From a bacterium (GTDB lineage: Bacteria > UBP6 > UBA1177 > JAKLFG01), in assembly GCA_022711315.1 (NCBI GenBank), contig JAKLFG010000007.1, positions 1 to 64,000 on the forward strand: 64,000 nt of DNA, given 5' to 3'. The notes beneath the pieces were generated by a model. The model was not told the origin of the DNA. It searched no databases and worked only from the letters and a program-made list of their open reading frames with translations. Below, in pieces: positions 2,305-63,606 of the stretch. Within the stretch, counting starts at the first letter, position 1; each line of letters starts with the position of its first letter. The position numbers and the translations under genes were made by a program.

Positions 2305-2419
2305 GAACCACTAAGCAATTCCGGGATGTGCGATTCCGAACAGTCTGTCTGGAGGACCTGCTCCTTCCCTTTTTGCGGTCTCCCGTCGCCTGTTCACGGA
2401 GAATCTCTTCGTCAAAAAG

Positions 2420-2447
2420 TGGCATTTTCTCTTTGCCGTGGTATCAT
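2420..2447 (+). promoter_or_regulatory. Putative promoter of the TlpA-like gene
   Basis: TGGCAT and TATCAT separated by 16 bases, 34 bases before the chosen ATG. Moderate match to a sigma-70 promoter. Confidence 0.35.
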
Positions 2448-2480
2448 CCGACCGTGTTTTCCAACCGCTTCGGAGGCGCG

Positions 2481-3101
2481 ATGCGTTCTTCCTTTCTTTT
2501 TCTTCTCTTTTCGCTAGCACCCTGCCTTTTCTTTGCAGCCGACGCCCCCGCTCCCGCGACCGAGGGTCTTGCCGAAGGCTCTCCTCTGGTCGATTTCGGT
2601 ATGCGGATCGTCGATCTGGAAAGCGGCAAACTCAAAAATCTGCTTTGGCTCACCGATTTCGTCGGAAAGCCGCCTCAGGGAAAAGTCGGCTCCGGCCCCG
2701 CGGAACGGAAAAAGGCTCTTGTTCTTAATTTCTACGCCAACTGGTGCAAGCCCTGTATCGAGGAGATGCCATTACTCCAGAAACTGCATGAGCGATACTC
2801 CGGCAAGGGCGTACAGTTCCTCGGCGTCAACTTCCGCAACGATGACGAAAACCCCGACAAGGTACTCGCAGGCACGATCGATATCTTGAAAAAGGAGAAG
2901 ATCACCTACCCCATACTGTTCGACCGTTTTACGACACGCAATCAACTCATCTACATGGGCTCCAAAGCCATCCTGCCCACGGTCGTTATATTTAATGCCG
3001 ACGGAGTGATGGTCAAAAAGCTGCAGGGAGAAAAGACAAAGAACATCAAAGAGATAGAAATGACCATTCAAAAACTTACCGGAGAAGCGGCGCATTATTA
3101 G
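2481..3101 (+). CDS. TlpA/ResA-like exported thioredoxin-family protein
   Basis: Predicted periplasmic thiol-disulfide oxidoreductase, 206 residues. Start chosen at ATG 2481 because GGAGG lies 4 bases upstream and the product begins with a clean signal peptide (MRSSFLFLLFSLAPCLFF, cleavage near AADA); the open frame upstream lacks such features. The active-site motif FYANWCKPCIEEMP gives the redox CXXC (WCKPC), followed by GVQFLGVNFRND and the cis-proline segment ILPTVVIF, all as in TlpA/ResA/AlkC-type reductases. Likely roles are reduction of protein or heme-carrier cysteines, but the partner is unknown. Twenty-five bases separate it from the next gene, suggesting co-transcription. Confidence 0.85.
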   Translation: MRSSFLFLLFSLAPCLFFAADAPAPATEGLAEGSPLVDFGMRIVDLESGKLKNLLWLTDFVGKPPQGKVGSGPAERKKALVLNFYANWCKPCIEEMPLLQKLHERYSGKGVQFLGVNFRNDDENPDKVLAGTIDILKKEKITYPILFDRFTTRNQLIYMGSKAILPTVVIFNADGVMVKKLQGEKTKNIKEIEMTIQKLTGEAAHY

Positions 3102-3126
3102 CCCCACAAGGGAAGGAGGATCACGC

Positions 3127-3774
3127 ATGACGACAAAGGTCGCGTTCATCGGCGGCGGCGAAATGACCCTCGCCTTTCTCCGTTTTTTTGAAAGAACACC
3201 GGGCATCGAAGTGGTGATGGTGACCGACGAGTTCCGGGACGCCCCCGCGCTCCGTTATGCCGCCGAGCACCAGGTGCGCATATCGACGAACATCATGGAT
3301 GCCATCCGTTACCCCGAGATCGACCTCATCATCGAACTCACCGATAACCGCGCCGAGGTACTTTCGGTCATCAACGACAACCTTTCCCCGCGCACCACTC
3401 TGCTCACTCATCGCCATGCCCGTATCATGTACGATCTGCTCGCCACGATCATCGAGAACGAGTTCGCGACCATAGAAGACCGGTTCATGCTCAACATCAA
3501 GGACATCAAGAAATCGATAACCGACTTTGCCGCCATCACCAAGAACATCGATATCCTGGCGATCAACGCATCCATCGAGGCGGCACGGGCTGGGGAGACA
3601 GGCAAGGGGTTCGCTGTGGTGGCGAACTCCATCAAGGATCTGGTCAAGAACAGCCGCGACACGCTTCAGCATGTCAGGTCGGTGCTGGAGAAACTCACGC
3701 TCATCCACAAGAACATGCAGGAGACCCGCGGCGCCCTCAAGACGAAAGAGAAGAGCGGCCCGCTTACCTATTGA
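3127..3774 (+). CDS. Soluble fusion of a Rossmann-like domain and a chemoreceptor signalling tip
   Basis: A 215-residue protein without any membrane segment or HAMP domain. Residues 3-105 look like a dinucleotide-binding Rossmann domain (KVAFIGGGEMTLAFLRFF, then IDLIIELTDNRAEVLSVI), similar to the N-terminal half of homoserine-dehydrogenase/Gfo-Idh-like proteins. Residues 130-195 carry the MCP hairpin tip: IDILAINASIEAARAGE followed by GKGFAVVANSIKDLVKNS, the segment that contacts CheA and CheW. The helical arms flanking the tip are only about 25 residues. Ribosome site GGAAGGAGG lies 6 bases upstream. A nucleotide- or metabolite-responsive cytosolic receptor is inferred; no che gene is in the window. 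The 3' end overlaps the convergent gene by 7 bases. Confidence 0.75.
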   Translation: MTTKVAFIGGGEMTLAFLRFFERTPGIEVVMVTDEFRDAPALRYAAEHQVRISTNIMDAIRYPEIDLIIELTDNRAEVLSVINDNLSPRTTLLTHRHARIMYDLLATIIENEFATIEDRFMLNIKDIKKSITDFAAITKNIDILAINASIEAARAGETGKGFAVVANSIKDLVKNSRDTLQHVRSVLEKLTLIHKNMQETRGALKTKEKSGPLTY

Positions 3775-4421
3775 CCGCTTCCCGAGAAGAAGAACCTTTT
3801 GGTCTCGGGCGTGGGGAACGCGATGTCAAGGACCCGGCGCGCCGTATCGGTATCGTAGGTCCGTTCGACCGAATCATAAAATTCGATGGACCGCATCTTG
3901 ACATCATCCATCGCGCGGGCCCAATCGACCTCGCCGCGGAACCAGCGCAACTGCACCTCCTCGAGATTCTCGAGAAGTCGTGAATAATCGCCGCCGATAC
4001 GCTGCCGCTGCTCCTCGTCGAACCCGTTACGCGCCAATCCGGCGTCAAGCACGCCCTTCCATGTATTGAAATAGGCCTTGTTCGTCCCCTTGAGCATCTC
4101 TTCCTGCCGCGACTGCATCACAGCTACGGCACTCTCGGCACCTCCTCCTTTTTTAAGCGCATCGACCTCGGCGCGAAGCCGGCGCATCTGCTCTTCCATC
4201 GCCGCGACAGAAAAGACATCCTTGACCTTGGCCACCTCTCCGGTCTTTTGCTCGCGCAATTCTTCGATCTGCGTCTCGAGAGCATCCAAACGGTCTTGAA
4301 GCGCGCTCACCTCTTCGGCGACAGGGCCGCCGCGATGCACCAGGACGATCGCTATGCACGCCAAGACCAACGCGATGAGCGCAACAACGGTCGCCACGAT
4401 GCTCCACCTCCTATCGTTCAT
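3768..4421 (-). CDS. Membrane-anchored coiled-coil protein, unknown function
   Basis: 217 residues. Start at ATG 4421, with AGGAGG just upstream and a 4-base stop/start overlap with the preceding gene; this is preferred over the longer frame to 4463. One N-terminal transmembrane helix (VVALIALVLACIAIVLVHR) follows MNDRRW, then a coiled coil rich in Leu/Glu heptads (residues about 35-95: VSALQDRLDALETQIEELRE), then a helical C-terminal domain (WFRGEVDWARAMDDVKM) ending FFFSGSGQ. I recognise no family. It is the last gene of a set headed by the giant coiled-coil protein, so an envelope role alongside it is a reasonable guess. The 3' end overlaps the convergent Rossmann/MCP gene. Confidence 0.7.
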   Translation of the reverse strand: MNDRRWSIVATVVALIALVLACIAIVLVHRGGPVAEEVSALQDRLDALETQIEELREQKTGEVAKVKDVFSVAAMEEQMRRLRAEVDALKKGGGAESAVAVMQSRQEEMLKGTNKAYFNTWKGVLDAGLARNGFDEEQRQRIGGDYSRLLENLEEVQLRWFRGEVDWARAMDDVKMRSIEFYDSVERTYDTDTARRVLDIAFPTPETKRFFFSGSGQ

Positions 4422-5269
4422 GGGGCCTCCTTCTTTCTTTTGCCCAGAAACAGCTCCCACCATTCAAGCGCCTCATCATCGAATCCTATACGCTTGAGCA
4501 TCTCTCGCGCCTTTTTATCTTCGGTATGTCGCAAAAGGACCAGCAGGGGGGTCTTTTCGGAGAGACCATCCTTGATGGTGGCCGTTGGGTCATCCACGGC
4601 GCGTGTTACCGCGTAACCGAGGTCATCGTCTTGCGAGGAGGGCAAGATCCCATTCTCATAAAGCCATCCGGCAAGTTCCCGTTCCGGGAACGGATGCTCC
4701 CTGACCTTGAGAGAGGATCGGAAGTTCTTGGTAAAACCCCGAGATGCGTATGTTATGGGCCGGTCCGCCAGAAGAAGGGGGGCTTCATCGCGTGCGGGGG
4801 GCTCGAAAGTGAAAAGCACGGAATAGACACCGGGGTCCAGGGTCAGTTCTGTCGTTGAATGGTCAAAGGGATGCTCCGGCGAGAAAACGCCCTTCTGTTC
4901 GCCGTTCACGGCGATCGTTCCTCTGAATATCCCGGAGAACAAGAAGAGAAAGGTCTCTTTTTTCGGCGCTTCGACACAGAGAGGGGCGTATCGGAGTCCC
5001 TCATTATAACTTTTCACGACATCCAGCGGAATACGCTGTATGCCGCCACGCCCGGTCAAAGGAAGATGGTAGCGCGCAAGAAAAAGATCTTTTACGCGAT
5101 CGCCTTTATCCTTTTTCAGCCAGCCGGAAACATCGGAGAGCGGCATATGGAAAACGCGGTACAGGTCGGCATACGATGTGGCGGGTGTCGCGGCAAAGAT
5201 CGGAAAAACACAGAGCACAAAAAGCAAGGGGAGCACCGCGCGTGCTCCCCCTCTCATAACATCTTTCAT
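4418..5269 (-). CDS. Exported protein of unknown function
   Basis: 283 residues with a signal peptide (AVLPLLFVLCVFPIFA, cleavage near ATPA). The mature part has a beta-rich middle (ETFLFLFSGIFRGTIAVNGE, LDPGVYSVLFTFEPP), which resembles a small jelly-roll or PEGA-like sandwich, and a helical C-terminus ending in GKRKKEAP. No catalytic motif is visible. The start is uncertain: no good ribosome site precedes ATG 5269, and an in-frame ATG at 5257 is an alternative. It begins 10 bases after the stop of the giant coiled-coil gene, and its stop overlaps the next start by 4 bases, so three genes appear co-expressed. Confidence 0.65.
   Translation of the reverse strand: MKDVMRGGARAVLPLLFVLCVFPIFAATPATSYADLYRVFHMPLSDVSGWLKKDKGDRVKDLFLARYHLPLTGRGGIQRIPLDVVKSYNEGLRYAPLCVEAPKKETFLFLFSGIFRGTIAVNGEQKGVFSPEHPFDHSTTELTLDPGVYSVLFTFEPPARDEAPLLLADRPITYASRGFTKNFRSSLKVREHPFPERELAGWLYENGILPSSQDDDLGYAVTRAVDDPTATIKDGLSEKTPLLVLLRHTEDKKAREMLKRIGFDDEALEWWELFLGKRKKEAP
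5228..5250 (-). other. Perfect 9-bp GC-rich hairpin between giant coiled-coil gene and its downstream neighbour
   Basis: GGGGAGCAC and GTGCTCCCC flank a 5-base loop. It lies in the first codons of the downstream gene, 30 bases after the stop of the 1717-residue gene, and has no T tract. It could protect the upstream mRNA end or limit translation of the downstream genes; it may also be incidental coding sequence. Confidence 0.35.
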
Positions 5270-5279
5270 CCGCGGACGA

Positions 5280-8200
5280 TTATTTGATCTCTTCGAGCAA
5301 CGCGCGGGAGCGAAGGAAGTATTCGTCGGTCGCGAGCAGGCTCTTGAGCAACTGCTGCAACATCTTCTTGGCCTTGGTCTTGTCGGACTCCTTGATGCCG
5401 AAGGCCTCCCAGTAGATGGCCTTCGCCTTCGAGTTGATCGAGTTCAAACCTTCCTTTGCCGTCTTATCGTTCCTGTTGAGGTACAGGGCCTGCACGAAGG
5501 CATCACGGGCACCGGAAAGGTCGTTCTCGTTCAGTTTGCCAAGACCGTTCTTCGCGAGCACCTCGGCGAGTTTCGCCTCGATGTTCTTGGTGGTGGCGGT
5601 GAGTTCCAGATCGCGCTTGGACTCGACCTTATAGGCCTCTTTATAGCGCGATTGGATGACCTTGAGCTCCTCGTCGGCTATGGCATCGAGTTTCTTCTGG
5701 TAGTCGGCATCGATCGCGGCCTTCTTCTTACGCGCGTCCTCCTTGTCCTTGGAGGCGTCCTCCTCGCGTTTCGACTTGGACCGGTCTATCTCATCGCGGA
5801 GTTTCTGTTCGTCCTCCTTCGATTTGGCCTGCTTCTTTTCCCAAACCTCCTTCTCTTTCGCGAGAATGCCCTGCCGCTTCTCCTTCCGCTTCTCCTTTTC
5901 GGCGAGGAGTTTATCACGCTGGGCCATCATCGTCTGTTTCTGCTTCTCGCGCTCGTTCTTCTCCTTCACCTCCATCTGTTCGTACTTCTCGGTGACCTTC
6001 CTCTTGCCCTCTTCGTAGAGGTCGGTCTCCTTCTGCTGGCGTTCGGTCCAAGCCTTTTCCCTCTTCTGGCCTTCGGCCTGATTCTTGACCTTGGTCTCGT
6101 CGAGTTTCTTCGCCCAGTCGGCATTGATGACCGCGATGTCGTTGGAAAGCCTCTCGACCTCTTTGGTGAGATCGGCTATCTTCTGGCGGGTACCGGCGGT
6201 GCGCGCCTCGAACGCTTTCTTGCGGTTCTCTTTTTCTTGTTCCCATTTTTTGACTTCATTGTCCCGCTGCTTCTTGCGATCGGCGAGCTTCCCATCGCGT
6301 TCTTTCTGGGCATCGGCGACCGATTTGTCGATATTCTTCCTGAAACGCTCCTTTTCGGCAAGGAAGGTCTTATACGCCTTTTCGGCCTGAGCTTTCTCCG
6401 CCTTCTTCGCCTTGGTGAACTTGTCGTTCTCGGCCTGCAGGCGCTTGTTCTCGGCGACATTCTTCATGTCGAGTTCCGTTGATTTAGCATCGTAGGCCGC
6501 ATCGATCGCCTCGACGGCCTGCGCCAAGAGCATTTCCTTCTCTTCTTCGTGCTTGGCCAGCGCCTTGTTGACAGCCGACAATTCGCTGTTAAGTTTTTTG
6601 AACTCCTTCGCCCGTTCGGCCGAAAGCGCGGCGGTTTCCTTCTTTATATTCTTTGCGAATCCTTTCTCGAGCGCATCCTTCTCCTTTGAAAGCGAGGCCT
6701 TCTCCTTTGTCAGGGCCGCGGCCTTTTCAGCTTTTTCGCCCGCGAGTTTCTTTTCATCGGCGCGCAGCGTATTCTTCTGGGCAGCGTACTTTTCCGACAC
6801 CTTCTTCATCTCCGCCTTCAGGAACGCGTCGAATCCCTTGGTCTCGCCTATCACCGTCGCCTTTTCTTTAGCGATATCGGCTATCTTTTGCTTGACGGCA
6901 TCACTGATACCTTTTATTTTCTGGTTCTTCTCAGCAACAAGCGTCTTCTTTTGCGCTTCCAACGAGGCTATCTTATCTTGGAAGGGCTTGCGCATCTCGT
7001 TCATCTTCGCCGGATCGACCTTACTGCTCCTCTTTTCCCAGCCCTTGATCTCCTTGCGGATGTCCTTTGTCTTCTTGTCGATCTCGGCGACCTCTGCCGA
7101 TATCTTACCCTTCTCCGCTTTTGCCTCCTCATCCACCTTTTGCACTATGCCCGCCTTCGCCTCTTTCAGCGACTTCAATTCGGCCGCCTTTTCCGCGAGG
7201 ACCGCCGCCTGCCGTTGCTTGACTGAACCAAGGACCGCCGCCACCTTCTTGTTGATGTCAGTAGCGCCCGCCTTCATCTCCTTGTCTTGCTTGGCAGCCG
7301 CCGCTTTCTGCGCCCGCATCGCCTCGTTGACCTTTTTCTGGTGGACCGCGAGAGCCTTCGCCTTGTCGCCGCTAATGGCTTTTATCTTCTTATTTATATC
7401 TATGGTCTCCTTCGCCTTCTCGGCATCGAACTTATCCAGTTTCTCCTTGTTCTGGGCTATCTGCCGTTCGTAGGTGGAGCGTTTGGTCTGAATGCTACGG
7501 TTCGCCGAATCCTCGGTGAATTTCAACTTGCGGTCGAGGGCGCCCTCATCCATCTCTATCTTTCTCATGTTCGCCTGATGTTCGCGCTCCATCTTGGCGA
7601 GTTCGGCCTTATTCTTCGTCTCGGCCTTCTTGTCCTGGAACGACTGCGTCTCGTTTATCTTGGCGCTTCTGATGGCATCGAGCATCTCCTGCAGTTTGTT
7701 CACCTCCTCAACCTTCTTGTTGTCGAGTTCGGCGATCTCCTGATTCATCTTCTCTACGATCGAATCGGTGCTGTACGGCTGCATAAGCTTGGCGTATTTG
7801 TCGTCGATGTCGGAAAGCATCTGATTCAACTTGTCGACCTGGGAGTCGAACTGTTGCGCTATCGCCGACTCCTCCTGTCCCAGTTTGGCAAGTTCCTTGG
7901 CAAACTCGTCCTCCTTGGCGGACCACGCCTGCGCCTGTTTGTCGAGTTCGGCCTGCAGACGCGCCCGTTCGGTCTCGGCCTCCCTCTGGACCTGATCCTC
8001 GACCTTGGCGAGTTTTTCGGCGTACTTGTTCTCTACGGACCCTATCTGGTCCTCCACCTTGTTGGTCTGTTCGGCCTTCTTCGTTTCGTACTTGGCGTCG
8101 ATCTCGGCCTTACGCGCTTTTTTCTGGTCGAGTTCGCCCGCGAGAGAAGACTCCTGGGCCATGAGCTTCTCTATCTCCTTGTTGACGATCTCGCCCCAGT

Positions 8201-10433
8201 TCGCCTTAAGGTTCTCGGTCGCCTCGACGAGTTTGTTCTTCTCATTGGCGATATCGTCATCTATCTTGGACAGTTTCGCGGCATATTCGTCCTCTATGCG
8301 GGCCTGCACCTCGGCGCTCGCGATCTTCTCCTTGTCTATCTTCTCATCATACACCGCCGATCTCTGAAGGGCCGCCTCGTTCTTCTGGCGGAGTTCGTTC
8401 TCCTTGGCACTCTTCTCCGACTCTTCGGCATCGGTCATTTTCGCCAGCGCGTTCTGTATCTGGGAGACCTTGCCCTCAAAATCCTGATCTATCTTGGCGA
8501 GATCTTCCTCTATCTTGGTGAGGCGTTTCTCGCTCTCCTGTATCTTCGCTTCCTGCGCCTTGGTCAGTTCATCCTCTTTCTTGGCGCGCAGCTGCTCGGT
8601 CTCGTCACCATGTTTCGCGACGGCGGCCTCGAGCGCCTGCTTTTTGGTCGTGAGATCGGTGAGTTTCGTTTGATATTCCTTTTCGGCCTTCTGTTGCGCC
8701 TGCGCTTTGTCGGTGTTGTACTTGCTGTCGATCGCGGCACGCTCCTTTTCAACATCTTCTTGGAACTTGCCCATTTTCTCGGCATTCTTCGCCATGTACT
8801 CCTCTATCTCTCGGTCGAACTTCGAGATATCGGCCTGTTTCTTGGACTCCTCGGTATCATACTTGGCAAGCTGGCTGTTGAGTTGATCGAACTTCTTCTG
8901 GTATTCCCGTTCGATCTCAACGGCGTACTTGCGATCCTCATCCTCGTTGCGCATGCGCACCGCTTCGAGTTCTCCCGCCTTAGCGCGTTCGGCCTTATCG
9001 AACTCGTCATTCATCTCCTGCAGTTTCTTGTCGGCCTCTTTTATCTGGTCTTCTTTTTCCTTCTTTTTCTTCTCGATGTCGGCTATTCTCGCCGTCACCT
9101 TTTTACCTTCGGCGTCCTCCCACTCTTTCTGCTTGCTGTAGTAGGCATCCTTTTCCGCCTGTATCTTTTTGCGGATCTCGTCGTTTTTCTTATCCAGCGC
9201 TTCGTATTCCTGCTTCTGTGCGTTCTCACGGCCCTTGTTCGCCGCCTTCACAACGCCTTTCTCGCGCTGCTCGATCATGGTGATCTGACTTTCGAGATTG
9301 ACGATCTCCTGCTCAAGGGACGAATCGTCCTTCTCCCACTGGTACTTGAGCCCCTGCACCTTTTCTTTAAGCGCCTTCTCGGCCTCCTTGGACATGGCCA
9401 CGAAGTCCTGAAGTTTTTTCTCTCTTTCGGCAAGGGCCGCCTCGCGCTCCTTGATGCGGTCGTTCACCCATTTGTCGACCGAGGCCTGCTGTTCAAGGCG
9501 CCATTTACGGACATCCTCTATCTTCCGCTTGAACTGGTTGTGTATCGAGTCGACCGCCGCCACATCGTCGCTGTTGGGCTTGCGGTAGATGACGCGCTCC
9601 ACATTGTCCTTCTTAAAGGACATCAGTTTGTACCCTGCGTCACGGACCTGCGTGTCAAGGTCGAGTATCGTCTTGAGGATGCGCTCCGCCTTACCGTAAT
9701 CCTGCGAGGAGACCGAATCCTCGGCGGCCGCGAGCCCCTTCTTGATGTTGACGATGTTCTCGTAATGTTTCTTCGCATCGTCGTTCTGGCTACATTTGCA
9801 GTTCATGTCGTTGGCAGCGCGGTAGAACGATTCCTCGGCGCCCGACAGGTCGCCCTTGCGATAAAAATCCATGCCCCGCTTTATCTCGTCCTTAACCTCG
9901 GAATAGGTGTAGGTCTTGGACGACGAACCGCTGCGGGCCGACCGCGCGGACGCGGAAGATTCGCTTGACCCGGAACTTCCTCCAGCGACATACTTATCGA
10001 CCAATTTCTTCGTAGCCGCCAACATCTTCGCCGCGATATCCTCCTCATCGGCATCCTTGCTGTATTCGACATCCTCGGTACCGAGTTTCTTGCCGGCGCC
10101 GCTCATGAGATAGACCATGATGCCGTCCGACGAGACCTTGCTCAGGAGATAATAGGCCGCGTCCGCCTCCTTGGCGACATTAAGCATGCACTTGAGGTCA
10201 TCCTTGCATTTCGCGGCGTCCTTGGGAGACAGATCTTTTTCGTAACTGACCGCCTTGACGCCCTTTATGGAAGAAAAGAGCATGGTGAAGTTCTCGAACA
10301 CATCGTCCGCCATCTTTTTCTCGTTCGCTTTTTTGGCGGCGATCGGCATGACGATCATCTGTTCCTGCGCCAAAAGGAGCGACGAGGTCATGAACAACAC
10401 CAAAGACGCGGTAAGGAAGCATGATCTTTTCAC
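5280..10433 (-). CDS. Giant exported coiled-coil protein (1717 residues) with N-terminal CX5C domain and C-terminal TPR-like end
   Basis: Start is GTG 10433: AAGGAGGG lies 4 bases upstream and the product opens with KRSCFLTASLVLFMTSSLLLA, a signal peptide. Residues about 25-150 form an alpha/beta domain containing CKDDLKC (CX5C); the same domain occurs twice in the protein at 19252-20574. A Ser-rich linker (SSGSSESSASARSARSGSSS) and a TPR-like stretch (GMDFYRKGDLSGAEESFYRA) follow. From about residue 290 to 1600 the sequence is almost uninterrupted Lys/Glu/Ala/Gln-rich coiled coil. The end (NENDLSGARDAFVQALYLNR) is again TPR-like. The fold could form a long periplasmic rod or tether. Promoter at 10506-10534. 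Function unknown; it is not SMC, having no ATPase motifs. Confidence 0.8.
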   Translation of the reverse strand: MKRSCFLTASLVLFMTSSLLLAQEQMIVMPIAAKKANEKKMADDVFENFTMLFSSIKGVKAVSYEKDLSPKDAAKCKDDLKCMLNVAKEADAAYYLLSKVSSDGIMVYLMSGAGKKLGTEDVEYSKDADEEDIAAKMLAATKKLVDKYVAGGSSGSSESSASARSARSGSSSKTYTYSEVKDEIKRGMDFYRKGDLSGAEESFYRAANDMNCKCSQNDDAKKHYENIVNIKKGLAAAEDSVSSQDYGKAERILKTILDLDTQVRDAGYKLMSFKKDNVERVIYRKPNSDDVAAVDSIHNQFKRKIEDVRKWRLEQQASVDKWVNDRIKEREAALAEREKKLQDFVAMSKEAEKALKEKVQGLKYQWEKDDSSLEQEIVNLESQITMIEQREKGVVKAANKGRENAQKQEYEALDKKNDEIRKKIQAEKDAYYSKQKEWEDAEGKKVTARIADIEKKKKEKEDQIKEADKKLQEMNDEFDKAERAKAGELEAVRMRNEDEDRKYAVEIEREYQKKFDQLNSQLAKYDTEESKKQADISKFDREIEEYMAKNAEKMGKFQEDVEKERAAIDSKYNTDKAQAQQKAEKEYQTKLTDLTTKKQALEAAVAKHGDETEQLRAKKEDELTKAQEAKIQESEKRLTKIEEDLAKIDQDFEGKVSQIQNALAKMTDAEESEKSAKENELRQKNEAALQRSAVYDEKIDKEKIASAEVQARIEDEYAAKLSKIDDDIANEKNKLVEATENLKANWGEIVNKEIEKLMAQESSLAGELDQKKARKAEIDAKYETKKAEQTNKVEDQIGSVENKYAEKLAKVEDQVQREAETERARLQAELDKQAQAWSAKEDEFAKELAKLGQEESAIAQQFDSQVDKLNQMLSDIDDKYAKLMQPYSTDSIVEKMNQEIAELDNKKVEEVNKLQEMLDAIRSAKINETQSFQDKKAETKNKAELAKMEREHQANMRKIEMDEGALDRKLKFTEDSANRSIQTKRSTYERQIAQNKEKLDKFDAEKAKETIDINKKIKAISGDKAKALAVHQKKVNEAMRAQKAAAAKQDKEMKAGATDINKKVAAVLGSVKQRQAAVLAEKAAELKSLKEAKAGIVQKVDEEAKAEKGKISAEVAEIDKKTKDIRKEIKGWEKRSSKVDPAKMNEMRKPFQDKIASLEAQKKTLVAEKNQKIKGISDAVKQKIADIAKEKATVIGETKGFDAFLKAEMKKVSEKYAAQKNTLRADEKKLAGEKAEKAAALTKEKASLSKEKDALEKGFAKNIKKETAALSAERAKEFKKLNSELSAVNKALAKHEEEKEMLLAQAVEAIDAAYDAKSTELDMKNVAENKRLQAENDKFTKAKKAEKAQAEKAYKTFLAEKERFRKNIDKSVADAQKERDGKLADRKKQRDNEVKKWEQEKENRKKAFEARTAGTRQKIADLTKEVERLSNDIAVINADWAKKLDETKVKNQAEGQKREKAWTERQQKETDLYEEGKRKVTEKYEQMEVKEKNEREKQKQTMMAQRDKLLAEKEKRKEKRQGILAKEKEVWEKKQAKSKEDEQKLRDEIDRSKSKREEDASKDKEDARKKKAAIDADYQKKLDAIADEELKVIQSRYKEAYKVESKRDLELTATTKNIEAKLAEVLAKNGLGKLNENDLSGARDAFVQALYLNRNDKTAKEGLNSINSKAKAIYWEAFGIKESDKTKAKKMLQQLLKSLLATDEYFLRSRALLEEIK

Positions 10434-10505
10434 GAGACCCTCCTTGAGCAACTTATCTCATTAAAACTAGTCACCTTTTCAATCTTCATTGCCTCTTCGT
10501 CGAGC

Positions 10506-61398: not shown

Positions 61399-63606
61399 TC
61401 ACTTCGACTTGAATTCCCAGATGCCGTTGTAGGCTTCGCCCGACTCTTTCATCTCTTGGGCGCGATCTTTAAGGAACGCGAACGCCTTATCGTCGGGGAA
61501 AGTGTTCTTCTCACACGCGGCGAGACAGGCGGCCATATCGCCCGCGATGAACGCGGTGAGCGCCGCTTCGTACTGCTCCTTGAGGCGGCGTTTCTCGTCG
61601 ATGCCCGGATCGGTGAGCCGTCCCATCAGTTCGAAGATGCGGACGCCCAGTTTCTTCCCCTTCACCTGCACGGTGTCGAGATGGCGGAACAGGAATTCGT
61701 CCTGTGCCCGTTCGAATATCTTCTCCGATGCGATGATGCGGACGCCGTAGGGACGGGTGAGTCCTTCCATGCGCGACGCTGTGTTGACCGCGTCGCCGAT
61801 GGCCGAGTAGTTGAACCGCTCCTCGGAGCCCATGTTGCCGACGATGGCGTCGCCGGCGTTGACGCCGACCCCCATCCGGACATCGGGTTTGCCCTCCGCC
61901 TTGAACTCGGTGCGGACGATGTCCATCCGCTCCATGATCTTGACCGCCGAGCGGCACGCCTCTTTTTCCTTGTTCGCTATCTCGATGGGGGCGCCGTAGA
62001 GCGCCATCATCGCGTCGCCCATGTACTTGTCGAGGAACCCGCTGTGTTCGAGCACCGCAGCGGTCGCCGGGGTGAAGAGGCGGTTGATCGCCTTGATGAG
62101 GTCTTCGGGCGGCATCGACTCCGAGAGCGTCGTGAAACCGACGATGTCGGAGAAGAGCGCCACGATCTCTTTTTTCCGGCCGTAGAGTTGTATCTGATCC
62201 GGGTCGCCGGTCAGTTGCGAGAGCAGTTTCGGGTCGAGATACTTCGCGAAGGCGTTACGCATGAACGACGCCTGCTTGTCGACGAAGAAATACTTGCCGA
62301 TATAGACGAGAAGCATCAGGAACCACAGAAAGAGGAGCGGGGTCGCCATGTAGATGACGACGCCTCCTTTATGCGAAAAGTAGCCGAACAGAAAGAAGAT
62401 GACCGAGTAGAAGGCGGTCCCGGCGATCCCCTGCCAGAGCGGTACGCGGTGGTAGAGGAAGCGGATGAAGAAGAGCGGGATGAGGACGAAGAGGAACGAG
62501 ACGAGGTAGGACCAGAACGGCGCGGTGAGGAAACGCCCGTCGATGATGTTGTTCATCATCGCGGCGTGGACGAAGATGCCGGGGATGAACTCCTCGAGCG
62601 GCGTCACGCGCTGGTCCCAGGTCCCGAGCGCGGTGTTGGCGACGAATACCACCTTGTCCTTCACCTCGGCCTGCGCCATGTCGGCGATGGAGAAGGTCTT
62701 GAACCGATCGCTCTTCGCATAGTAGTTTATGAGTGTGAGCCCCTCATAACTCGTCGGGATATCGAGGTCGCCGACCCGTATCTCCTCGATGCCGGTGGTC
62801 GAATAGGTGATCTGGGCCACCTTATCGAAATAGAGTTGCGTCGCGGCGAGCGCGAGCGACGGCAGGAGTACCCATTCATCCTCGCCCTGCCGGACCGAAC
62901 TCACGAGGAGGTAGTGGCGGATCGGACCGTCGAGATCGGGAACGGTGTTGAAGAAGGCGAGTCCGGCGCCGGTGCCGGAGAACTCGGGAAGCGGCAGCAT
63001 GATCCCCGCGTAACTGTGGGGCACCGGCGGCTTGCCTGCCGCCGATGCTTCGACCGGCTTCAACATGAAGTTCGACTTTGTCTGTGCCACCTGTATCGCC
63101 GCCCCGGCCGCCGCCGCGTCGGTCGCCTCGGCCGGCGTCTGGAGAATAGCGCCGAGCACCACCTTGCGGCCGTGCTTATCGAGCGTCGCCTTGAGTTTCG
63201 CGTCGCCCGGCACCCACGCCGGGTCGAGCGCCGCTATCTTCGCTTCAAGGTCGCGGTTCACGCGCTCCGAGAAGGTCATGTCGAACACGACCCCCTTCGC
63301 GCCGCGCTCCATCACCGTCTCGACGAGTTCGGCGATGACGCCGCGGTCCCATGGCCAGCGACCGTACGCCGCGAGCGCCTTGTCGTCGGCCGCCGCGATG
63401 ACGAACTTGTCCGAAGCCGCCTCGTCGGGCAACATCTTGACCTGCGCGTCGTAGAGGAGCATCTCAAGCAGATACATGTTGCGACTGCCCTCGGGCTTCG
63501 CGATGTAATGCAGGAAAAAGCCCGCGAATATCACGAAGGCGCCGAGCGCAATGGCGCGCACGACGGTGAAGCCCTTGTCGGCCGGTCTTTTCTGTGCGGT
63601 GGTCAT
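61399..63606 (-). CDS. CHASE2-domain class III adenylate/guanylate cyclase
   Basis: 735 residues; GGGAGGGG upstream of the ATG. First membrane helix (IALGAFVIFAGFFLHYI), large extracytoplasmic CHASE2 sensor (LLYDAQVKMLPDE, FVIAAADDKALAAYGRWPWD, VVFDMTFSERVNRDLE), three closing helices, then a cyclase catalytic domain: VALFSDIVGFTTLSESMPPE (metal-binding Asp), FLDKYMGDAMMALYGAP (second Asp) and NAGDAIVGNMGSEERFNYSA with AIGDAVNTASRMEG. All active-site acids seem present; K/D base-choice residues suggest adenylate cyclase. A C-terminal helical extension of about 90 residues follows. It is downstream of enolase by 21 bases, so maybe in the same transcript. Confidence 0.93.
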   Translation of the reverse strand: MTTAQKRPADKGFTVVRAIALGAFVIFAGFFLHYIAKPEGSRNMYLLEMLLYDAQVKMLPDEAASDKFVIAAADDKALAAYGRWPWDRGVIAELVETVMERGAKGVVFDMTFSERVNRDLEAKIAALDPAWVPGDAKLKATLDKHGRKVVLGAILQTPAEATDAAAAGAAIQVAQTKSNFMLKPVEASAAGKPPVPHSYAGIMLPLPEFSGTGAGLAFFNTVPDLDGPIRHYLLVSSVRQGEDEWVLLPSLALAATQLYFDKVAQITYSTTGIEEIRVGDLDIPTSYEGLTLINYYAKSDRFKTFSIADMAQAEVKDKVVFVANTALGTWDQRVTPLEEFIPGIFVHAAMMNNIIDGRFLTAPFWSYLVSFLFVLIPLFFIRFLYHRVPLWQGIAGTAFYSVIFFLFGYFSHKGGVVIYMATPLLFLWFLMLLVYIGKYFFVDKQASFMRNAFAKYLDPKLLSQLTGDPDQIQLYGRKKEIVALFSDIVGFTTLSESMPPEDLIKAINRLFTPATAAVLEHSGFLDKYMGDAMMALYGAPIEIANKEKEACRSAVKIMERMDIVRTEFKAEGKPDVRMGVGVNAGDAIVGNMGSEERFNYSAIGDAVNTASRMEGLTRPYGVRIIASEKIFERAQDEFLFRHLDTVQVKGKKLGVRIFELMGRLTDPGIDEKRRLKEQYEAALTAFIAGDMAACLAACEKNTFPDDKAFAFLKDRAQEMKESGEAYNGIWEFKSK

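Follow-up and report, generated by a model that had tools for sequence, protein, structure and literature searches.

Chemoreceptors (MCPs) are sorted in MiST 3.0 into twelve heptad classes, ranging from 24H to 64H (PMC6943060). The soluble receptor Tm14 of Thermotoga maritima is a membrane-free MCP hairpin, for which a long solved chain of 213 residues (3g67) and short chains of 85-90 residues (4jpb, 3ur1) are available. The 4jpb structure is a complex of CheA P4-P5, CheW and a Tm14 fragment, and the short Tm14 fragment is described as 'unzipped' (PMC6746300). Here, we analysed a protein encoded in a window of bacterial DNA, the window being the whole stretch of 64,000 nucleotides. The protein resembles Tm14 in its membrane-free MCP hairpin, with 30% identity over 109 aligned columns, and its best PDB sequence matches are the short Tm14 chains, which approximate the length of the natural hairpin found here. 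Unlike the 213-residue chain of 3g67, this hairpin comprises only about 100 residues. The matches to Tm14 are confined to the hairpin, and Tm14 has no counterpart of the Rossmann domain that precedes it in the window protein. The gene, its parts and its two neighbours are as follows.

2328-3101, forward strand: thioredoxin-like (TlpA/redoxin) gene, 25 nt upstream of the open reading frame (Pfam Redoxin, E = 4.7e-14)
3113-3119, forward strand: Shine-Dalgarno-like AAGGAGG, 7 nt 5' of the ATG at 3127 (read from the sequence)
3127-3774, forward strand: whole gene for the soluble protein with a Rossmann domain and a minimal MCP tip, 215 amino acids and stop (open reading frame, same-order orthologs, purifying selection)
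3127-3447, forward strand: residues 1-107, Rossmann-like input domain (AlphaFold2 secondary structure, Foldseek, profile match, hhalign)
3448-3525, forward strand: residues 108-133, N-terminal arm of the hairpin (model helix 95-204)
3526-3657, forward strand: residues 134-177, MCP hairpin tip FAAITKNIDILAINASIEAARAGETGKGFAVVANSIKDLVKNSR, near-invariant in the family (PF00015, identity, dN/dS)
3658-3741, forward strand: residues 178-205, C-terminal arm, extending to about 45 residues from the turn and without a methylation region (model and alignment)
3768-4463, reverse strand: convergent neighbouring gene for a 231-residue protein, part of a conserved run

The protein is an N-terminal Rossmann domain (about residues 1-107) fused to a chemoreceptor hairpin tip. 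This architecture had been proposed in the first-pass annotation, and we found the open reading frame with both tip motifs quoted there; residues 116-192 match the Pfam family PF00015 (MCPsignal) with 63.8 bits (E = 2.3e-17), well over the curated cut-off of 34.6 bits. The match covers only profile positions 28-100 of 172, corresponding to the tip and its flanks. The same annotation had seen no HAMP domain, membrane segment or methylation arms, and we agree. HAMP domain and methylation region are both absent from the 215-residue protein. When the whole protein was scanned, no 19-residue stretch exceeded a Kyte-Doolittle mean of 1.0, showing that a membrane segment is absent. Landmarks of the Rossmann domain are GGGEMT in place of GxGxxG, an Asp closing beta-2 and a DAPALRYA motif. 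Heptad-like periodicity is modest in the N-terminal arm and strong in the C-terminal arm.

Structure prediction, which the first-pass annotation had suggested as a check, yielded an AlphaFold2 model (mean pLDDT 83, pTM 0.60) in which strands and helices alternate over residues 3-93, followed by a single long helical segment, 95-204. Foldseek matched the first part to the dehydrogenases PheF (7z3s, E = 2.7e-4) and DmpF (1nvm, E = 9.3e-4). The helical part matched the Tsr tip chain 6s1k_E over 100 columns at 2.7 Å with a TM score of 0.77 (normalised to 6s1k_E), as well as the soluble receptor Tm14 (3g67). A straight helix is incompatible with hairpin matches at 2.7 Å r.m.s.d., and the segment is thus most likely folded as a hairpin in the model.

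Counted from the turn, each arm is about 45 residues long, and the hairpin amounts to about 13-14 heptads. This hairpin fits none of the twelve MiST classes, of which the shortest is 24H, and a size so far under that class makes trimer-of-dimer packing uncertain. The position of F373 of Tsr, a trimer contact, is an invariant lysine (K139). In Tsr, the methylation helices lie about 80-90 residues from the tip. Here, the PF00015 match stops at residue 192 and the model helix at residue 204, short of the position of the methylation helices, indicating that the methylation region is absent. The genome encodes two other MCPs, and the tip shares 22 of its 44 residues with either one. Other PDB and Pfam matches (PPAR-gamma, exocyst, PCNA and others), with E values of about 0.01 or higher, were rejected as chance or coiled-coil similarities.

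Eight orthologs were identified within the order of the host; seven are full-length and one is cut at a contig end. They are 40-70% identical, span three families and retain the architecture wherever it is covered, so the reading frame is not a chance one. A profile scan of the genome contigs found three members of the family, and no relatives turned up among the viral contigs searched. The near-invariant alignment columns are ITKNIDILAINASIEAARAGE and GKGFxVVAxxIKxLVKxS. On average, pairs of family members are 89% identical in the tip, 43% in the arms and 34% in the Rossmann domain; the N-terminal alignment has just two invariant residues, A45 and E117. The dN/dS values follow suit at 0-0.04 for the tip and 0.1-0.34 for the Rossmann domain, with dS saturated in several pairs. 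Judged from these comparisons, the protein is under selection, most strongly at the tip. Docking on conserved partners would be expected to leave just such a pattern, a near-invariant tip of 40 residues beside a drifting Rossmann part. The strong purifying selection also bears out the first-pass view that the gene is probably functional and not decaying. A functionless pseudogene, or the remnant of a larger receptor, might have been suspected from the very short length, the missing methylation arms and the location apart from the che cluster. However, same-architecture orthologs in three families with a tip dN/dS near zero, together with a frame free of stops and an intact start and Shine-Dalgarno sequence, speak against it. 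We rejected this idea on the dN/dS values and give it a negligible probability.

The 'GGGEM-type Rossmann start' of the first-pass annotation has to be divided into two parts: the Rossmann core was recovered by model and profile, but the dinucleotide motif was not, its third glycine being missing. Pfam searches with the single sequence gave weak Rossmann matches (E = 0.02-0.08), and a nine-sequence profile reached pyrroline-5-carboxylate reductase (3gt0, E = 6.8e-5). The alternating strands and helices and the matches to 7z3s, 1nvm and 3gt0 together identify a Rossmann fold. The glycine loops of the orthologs that cover this region read GGGEMT, GGGDAT, GATESE, GAGRDE, GAGEKE, GASRED and GCDTQT. 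None of them has the third Gly of GxGxxG, and the second is missing in three of eight orthologs (GATESE, GASRED and GCDTQT). The acidic residue ending beta-2 is kept in most orthologs. NAD(P) binding is doubtful because of the missing third Gly, and so, from the alignment, is binding of any dinucleotide by this family; the coupling of a dinucleotide to chemotaxis, one of the options first envisaged, is not supported. A sensor of NAD(P)(H) redox state for chemosensory signalling would be a special case of the explanation we prefer (see below). The Rossmann core does match the NAD-dependent PheF, DmpF and Gfo/Idh proteins, the acidic beta-2 end is in keeping with it, and in the host genome the gene is directly preceded by one for a redoxin. 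Nevertheless, the glycine loop speaks against this special case, the more so as homologous domains in other signalling proteins keep G-A-G, and none of the relatives inspected showed a redoxin gene at the upstream position. We therefore regard an NAD(P)(H) sensor as unlikely.

The profile search with the N-terminal region, also proposed at first reading, uncovered what that reading had overlooked, namely a recurrent signalling input domain. Across 386 genomes, the profile matched the N-termini of histidine kinases, GGDEF proteins and sigma-54 activators, mostly ranked over metabolic Gfo/Idh enzymes. It also found longer fusions of a Rossmann domain to an MCP elsewhere, in a soluble family of another phylum (about 285-304 residues, 13 genomes). 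When the profile of the Rossmann domain was aligned by hhalign with that of the kinase/GGDEF/sigma-54 group (L038-L051), a match with 99% probability (E = 9e-18) was obtained. That group keeps the G-A-G and T-G motifs, which the window family lacks. Its Rossmann input domain is matched by GFO_IDH_MocA, NAD_binding_3 and similar enzyme models and has no Pfam model of its own. Because homologs head kinases, GGDEF proteins, sigma-54 proteins and MCPs, we read the Rossmann domain, by homology, as a recurrent cytosolic signalling input domain. Placing the Rossmann domains of both Rossmann-MCP families in one common clade gave an AU p of 0.38, which neither establishes nor rejects a single origin of the Rossmann-MCP fusions; an initial tree with long branches was discarded. 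A further protein (L057), from the sole genome examined of its phylum (G111), has a Rossmann domain and an MCP-like tip that is both short and degenerate (TRILAVNAKMEASR...GKGQTFKVVAKQM); its gene is truncated by the contig end, and its MCPsignal score of 32.2 bits is slightly under the cut-off.

The host genome, which is 83% complete, encodes both CheA and CheW within a che cluster, something that the first-pass annotation had proposed to look for. The single cluster (G000:C13) encodes CheY, CheA, CheW, HPt-CheW, CheR, CheD and CheB, the gene names being based on sequence reading and CheW profile matches. It includes three CheW-domain proteins, CheA and CheW among them; the gene under study lies outside it. 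There are three MCPs in all, the window protein and two others. One other MCP has membrane segments and HAMP-like features. In the MCP on contig G000:C29 (L026, 1055 residues), a region of beta-propeller-like repeats lies ahead of the signalling domain.

The gene and CheW are both present or both absent in 22 of the 25 genomes of the order. Genus g4 lacks both in all 15 of its genomes, and seven of the ten other genomes carry both. Of the three exceptions, two (G003 and G014) carry the gene and yielded no CheW. The third (G001) encodes CheW and lacks both the gene and a neighbour found in every other genome of the order, which hints at a gap in the assembly. All three exceptions are likely due to incomplete assemblies. 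The association is a clear one, but the p = 5e-4 of Fisher's exact test overstates it, as a single loss during evolution may account for the absence of both from g4.

The Che pathway is not a flagellar one, because FlhA is absent from the order (0 of 25 genomes; it is present in the phylum's other family) and FliG was not found in the host genome. Flagellar chemotaxis, to which the first-pass annotation's 'chemotaxis' could have referred, is thus set aside. PilT occurs in all 28 genomes of the phylum, and type IV pili are a plausible output, though a presumptive one, given that genus g4 has pili without Che.

The conserved gene run that converges on the locus encodes the 231-residue protein, a 283-residue protein, a coiled-coil protein of 1723 residues, an M23 peptidase and a PMT_2 glycosyltransferase. 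Neither the 231- nor the 283-residue protein has a Pfam match. The 1723-residue protein (window 5280-10451, reverse strand) is nearly all coiled coil, with a signal-peptide-like N-terminus and no Pfam match. Among the 25 genomes of the order, 24 encode a homolog of the 231-residue protein; the three examined from the phylum's other family have none. This operon, rather than CheA/CheW, could be imagined as the partner of the window protein, as the two are adjacent in the host genome and five relatives from two families. Against such dependence, genus g4 retains the gene for the 231-residue protein in all 15 genomes, and those inspected keep the operon with different genes beside it and no remnant of the Rossmann-MCP gene. 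In G006, conversely, the gene is located away from the operon and its tip is still conserved. The operon is also convergent, and the N-terminus of the giant coiled coil resembles that of an exported protein, whereas the window protein is cytosolic. We rejected dependence on the neighbouring operon on the grounds of g4 and G006, and consider it very improbable. On the other side, the redoxin gene is possibly co-transcribed with the open reading frame; in the relatives inspected from a second family and from one genus of the same family, pheS occupies the upstream position. Further away in the window (61399-63606, reverse strand), a 735-residue protein fuses a CHASE2 domain to an adenylate/guanylate cyclase domain.

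We favour, with moderate confidence, a cytosolic and membrane-free receptor that passes a cue sensed by the Rossmann domain to a CheA/CheW array with a non-flagellar output. The window protein would thereby probably feed an internal metabolic signal into a chemotaxis-type system. Around a predicted fold, we infer the following scheme for dimerisation, array insertion, ligand sensing and output. The C-terminal hairpin, probably as a homodimer, would insert its tip into the CheA/CheW array formed by the products of the sole che cluster, next to the genome's two receptors of conventional type. The Rossmann domain would sense a cytosolic nucleotide-like or metabolite cue and alter the packing of the short hairpin. 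With arms that stop short of the methylation region, the protein itself cannot be methylated, implying either a non-adapting input or reliance on methylation of neighbouring receptors; the receptor is probably non-adapting. The output would not be the flagellum, with type IV pili as the most likely target and another cellular function as the alternative. Points that weigh against this scheme are the small hairpin and the 'unzipped' state of the comparable Tm14 fragment, the lysine at the F373 position, the location of the gene outside the che cluster and the three exceptions to its co-occurrence with CheW. More specifically, we suggest tentatively, at rather less than even confidence, that the protein is a natural minimal chemoreceptor of about 13-14 heptads, slightly over half of the shortest MiST class, and devoid of an adaptation region. 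It would couple a Rossmann metabolite sensor, of a type also used by kinases, cyclases and sigma-54 activators, to a CheA/CheW array whose output is not the flagellum.

The main rival is a ligand-free modulator that acts on the array structurally or competitively: the hairpin would join or cap CheA/CheW arrays, and the Rossmann domain would be a folding, dimerising or anchoring module. The weak conservation and lost third Gly of the Rossmann domain next to a near-invariant tip, and the absent methylation region, would suit such a role. Yet the Rossmann domain is still constrained, judging from its dN/dS, and retains all strands and helices in the model. An input role is also the natural reading of a domain whose homologs head histidine kinases, GGDEF and sigma-54 proteins. 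The modulator thus appears fairly unlikely to us.

If the protein signals, it would mark a natural lower size limit of a working chemoreceptor, under any MiST class and about the size of the Tm14 fragment used in crystallography. The tip hairpin alone would then suffice for array insertion and signalling in nature, without HAMP domain, membrane or methylation, under the control of a sensor domain reused ahead of other outputs. The receptor reading would also draw attention to a cytosolic sensor domain that is widespread and has no name yet. The protein would moreover be a convenient system, being short, soluble and probably crystallisable, in which to test directly how sensor packing controls CheA.

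Among known systems other than Tm14, the Rossmann-MCP family of the G285 phylum (L037/L058-L070) is alike in being soluble and in having a homologous Rossmann domain (E = 4.8e-12) followed by MCPsignal. It differs in covering MCPsignal positions 14-142 instead of 28-100, hence its longer hairpin, and in a glycine loop that is mostly GGGxGA, and is a separate family. The input domain of L038-L051 is homologous and has the same N-terminal placement, with kinase, cyclase and transcription activation as outputs and, unlike the window family, an intact GxG motif. The NAD-binding domains of Gfo/Idh/MocA and DmpF type have the fold in common with the window protein, which scores 14.1 bits, under the Pfam cut-off of 24, lacks the catalytic domain and has a degraded glycine motif. 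Bacillus subtilis YfmS (9a72, a model with CheW), a protein of 286 residues, matches at the level of fold over about 118 columns with 28% identity. A literature search for a Rossmann-type chemoreceptor or sensor domain returned nothing relevant, and novelty is weakly supported by it since coverage was partial, subscription journals lying mostly outside it. Soluble MCPs are known already, as are Rossmann-MCP fusions of usual length, the latter shown here in another phylum. What is new is that the protein is so short, that this form is strictly conserved in an order devoid of flagella, and that it is tied to a shared, unnamed input domain.
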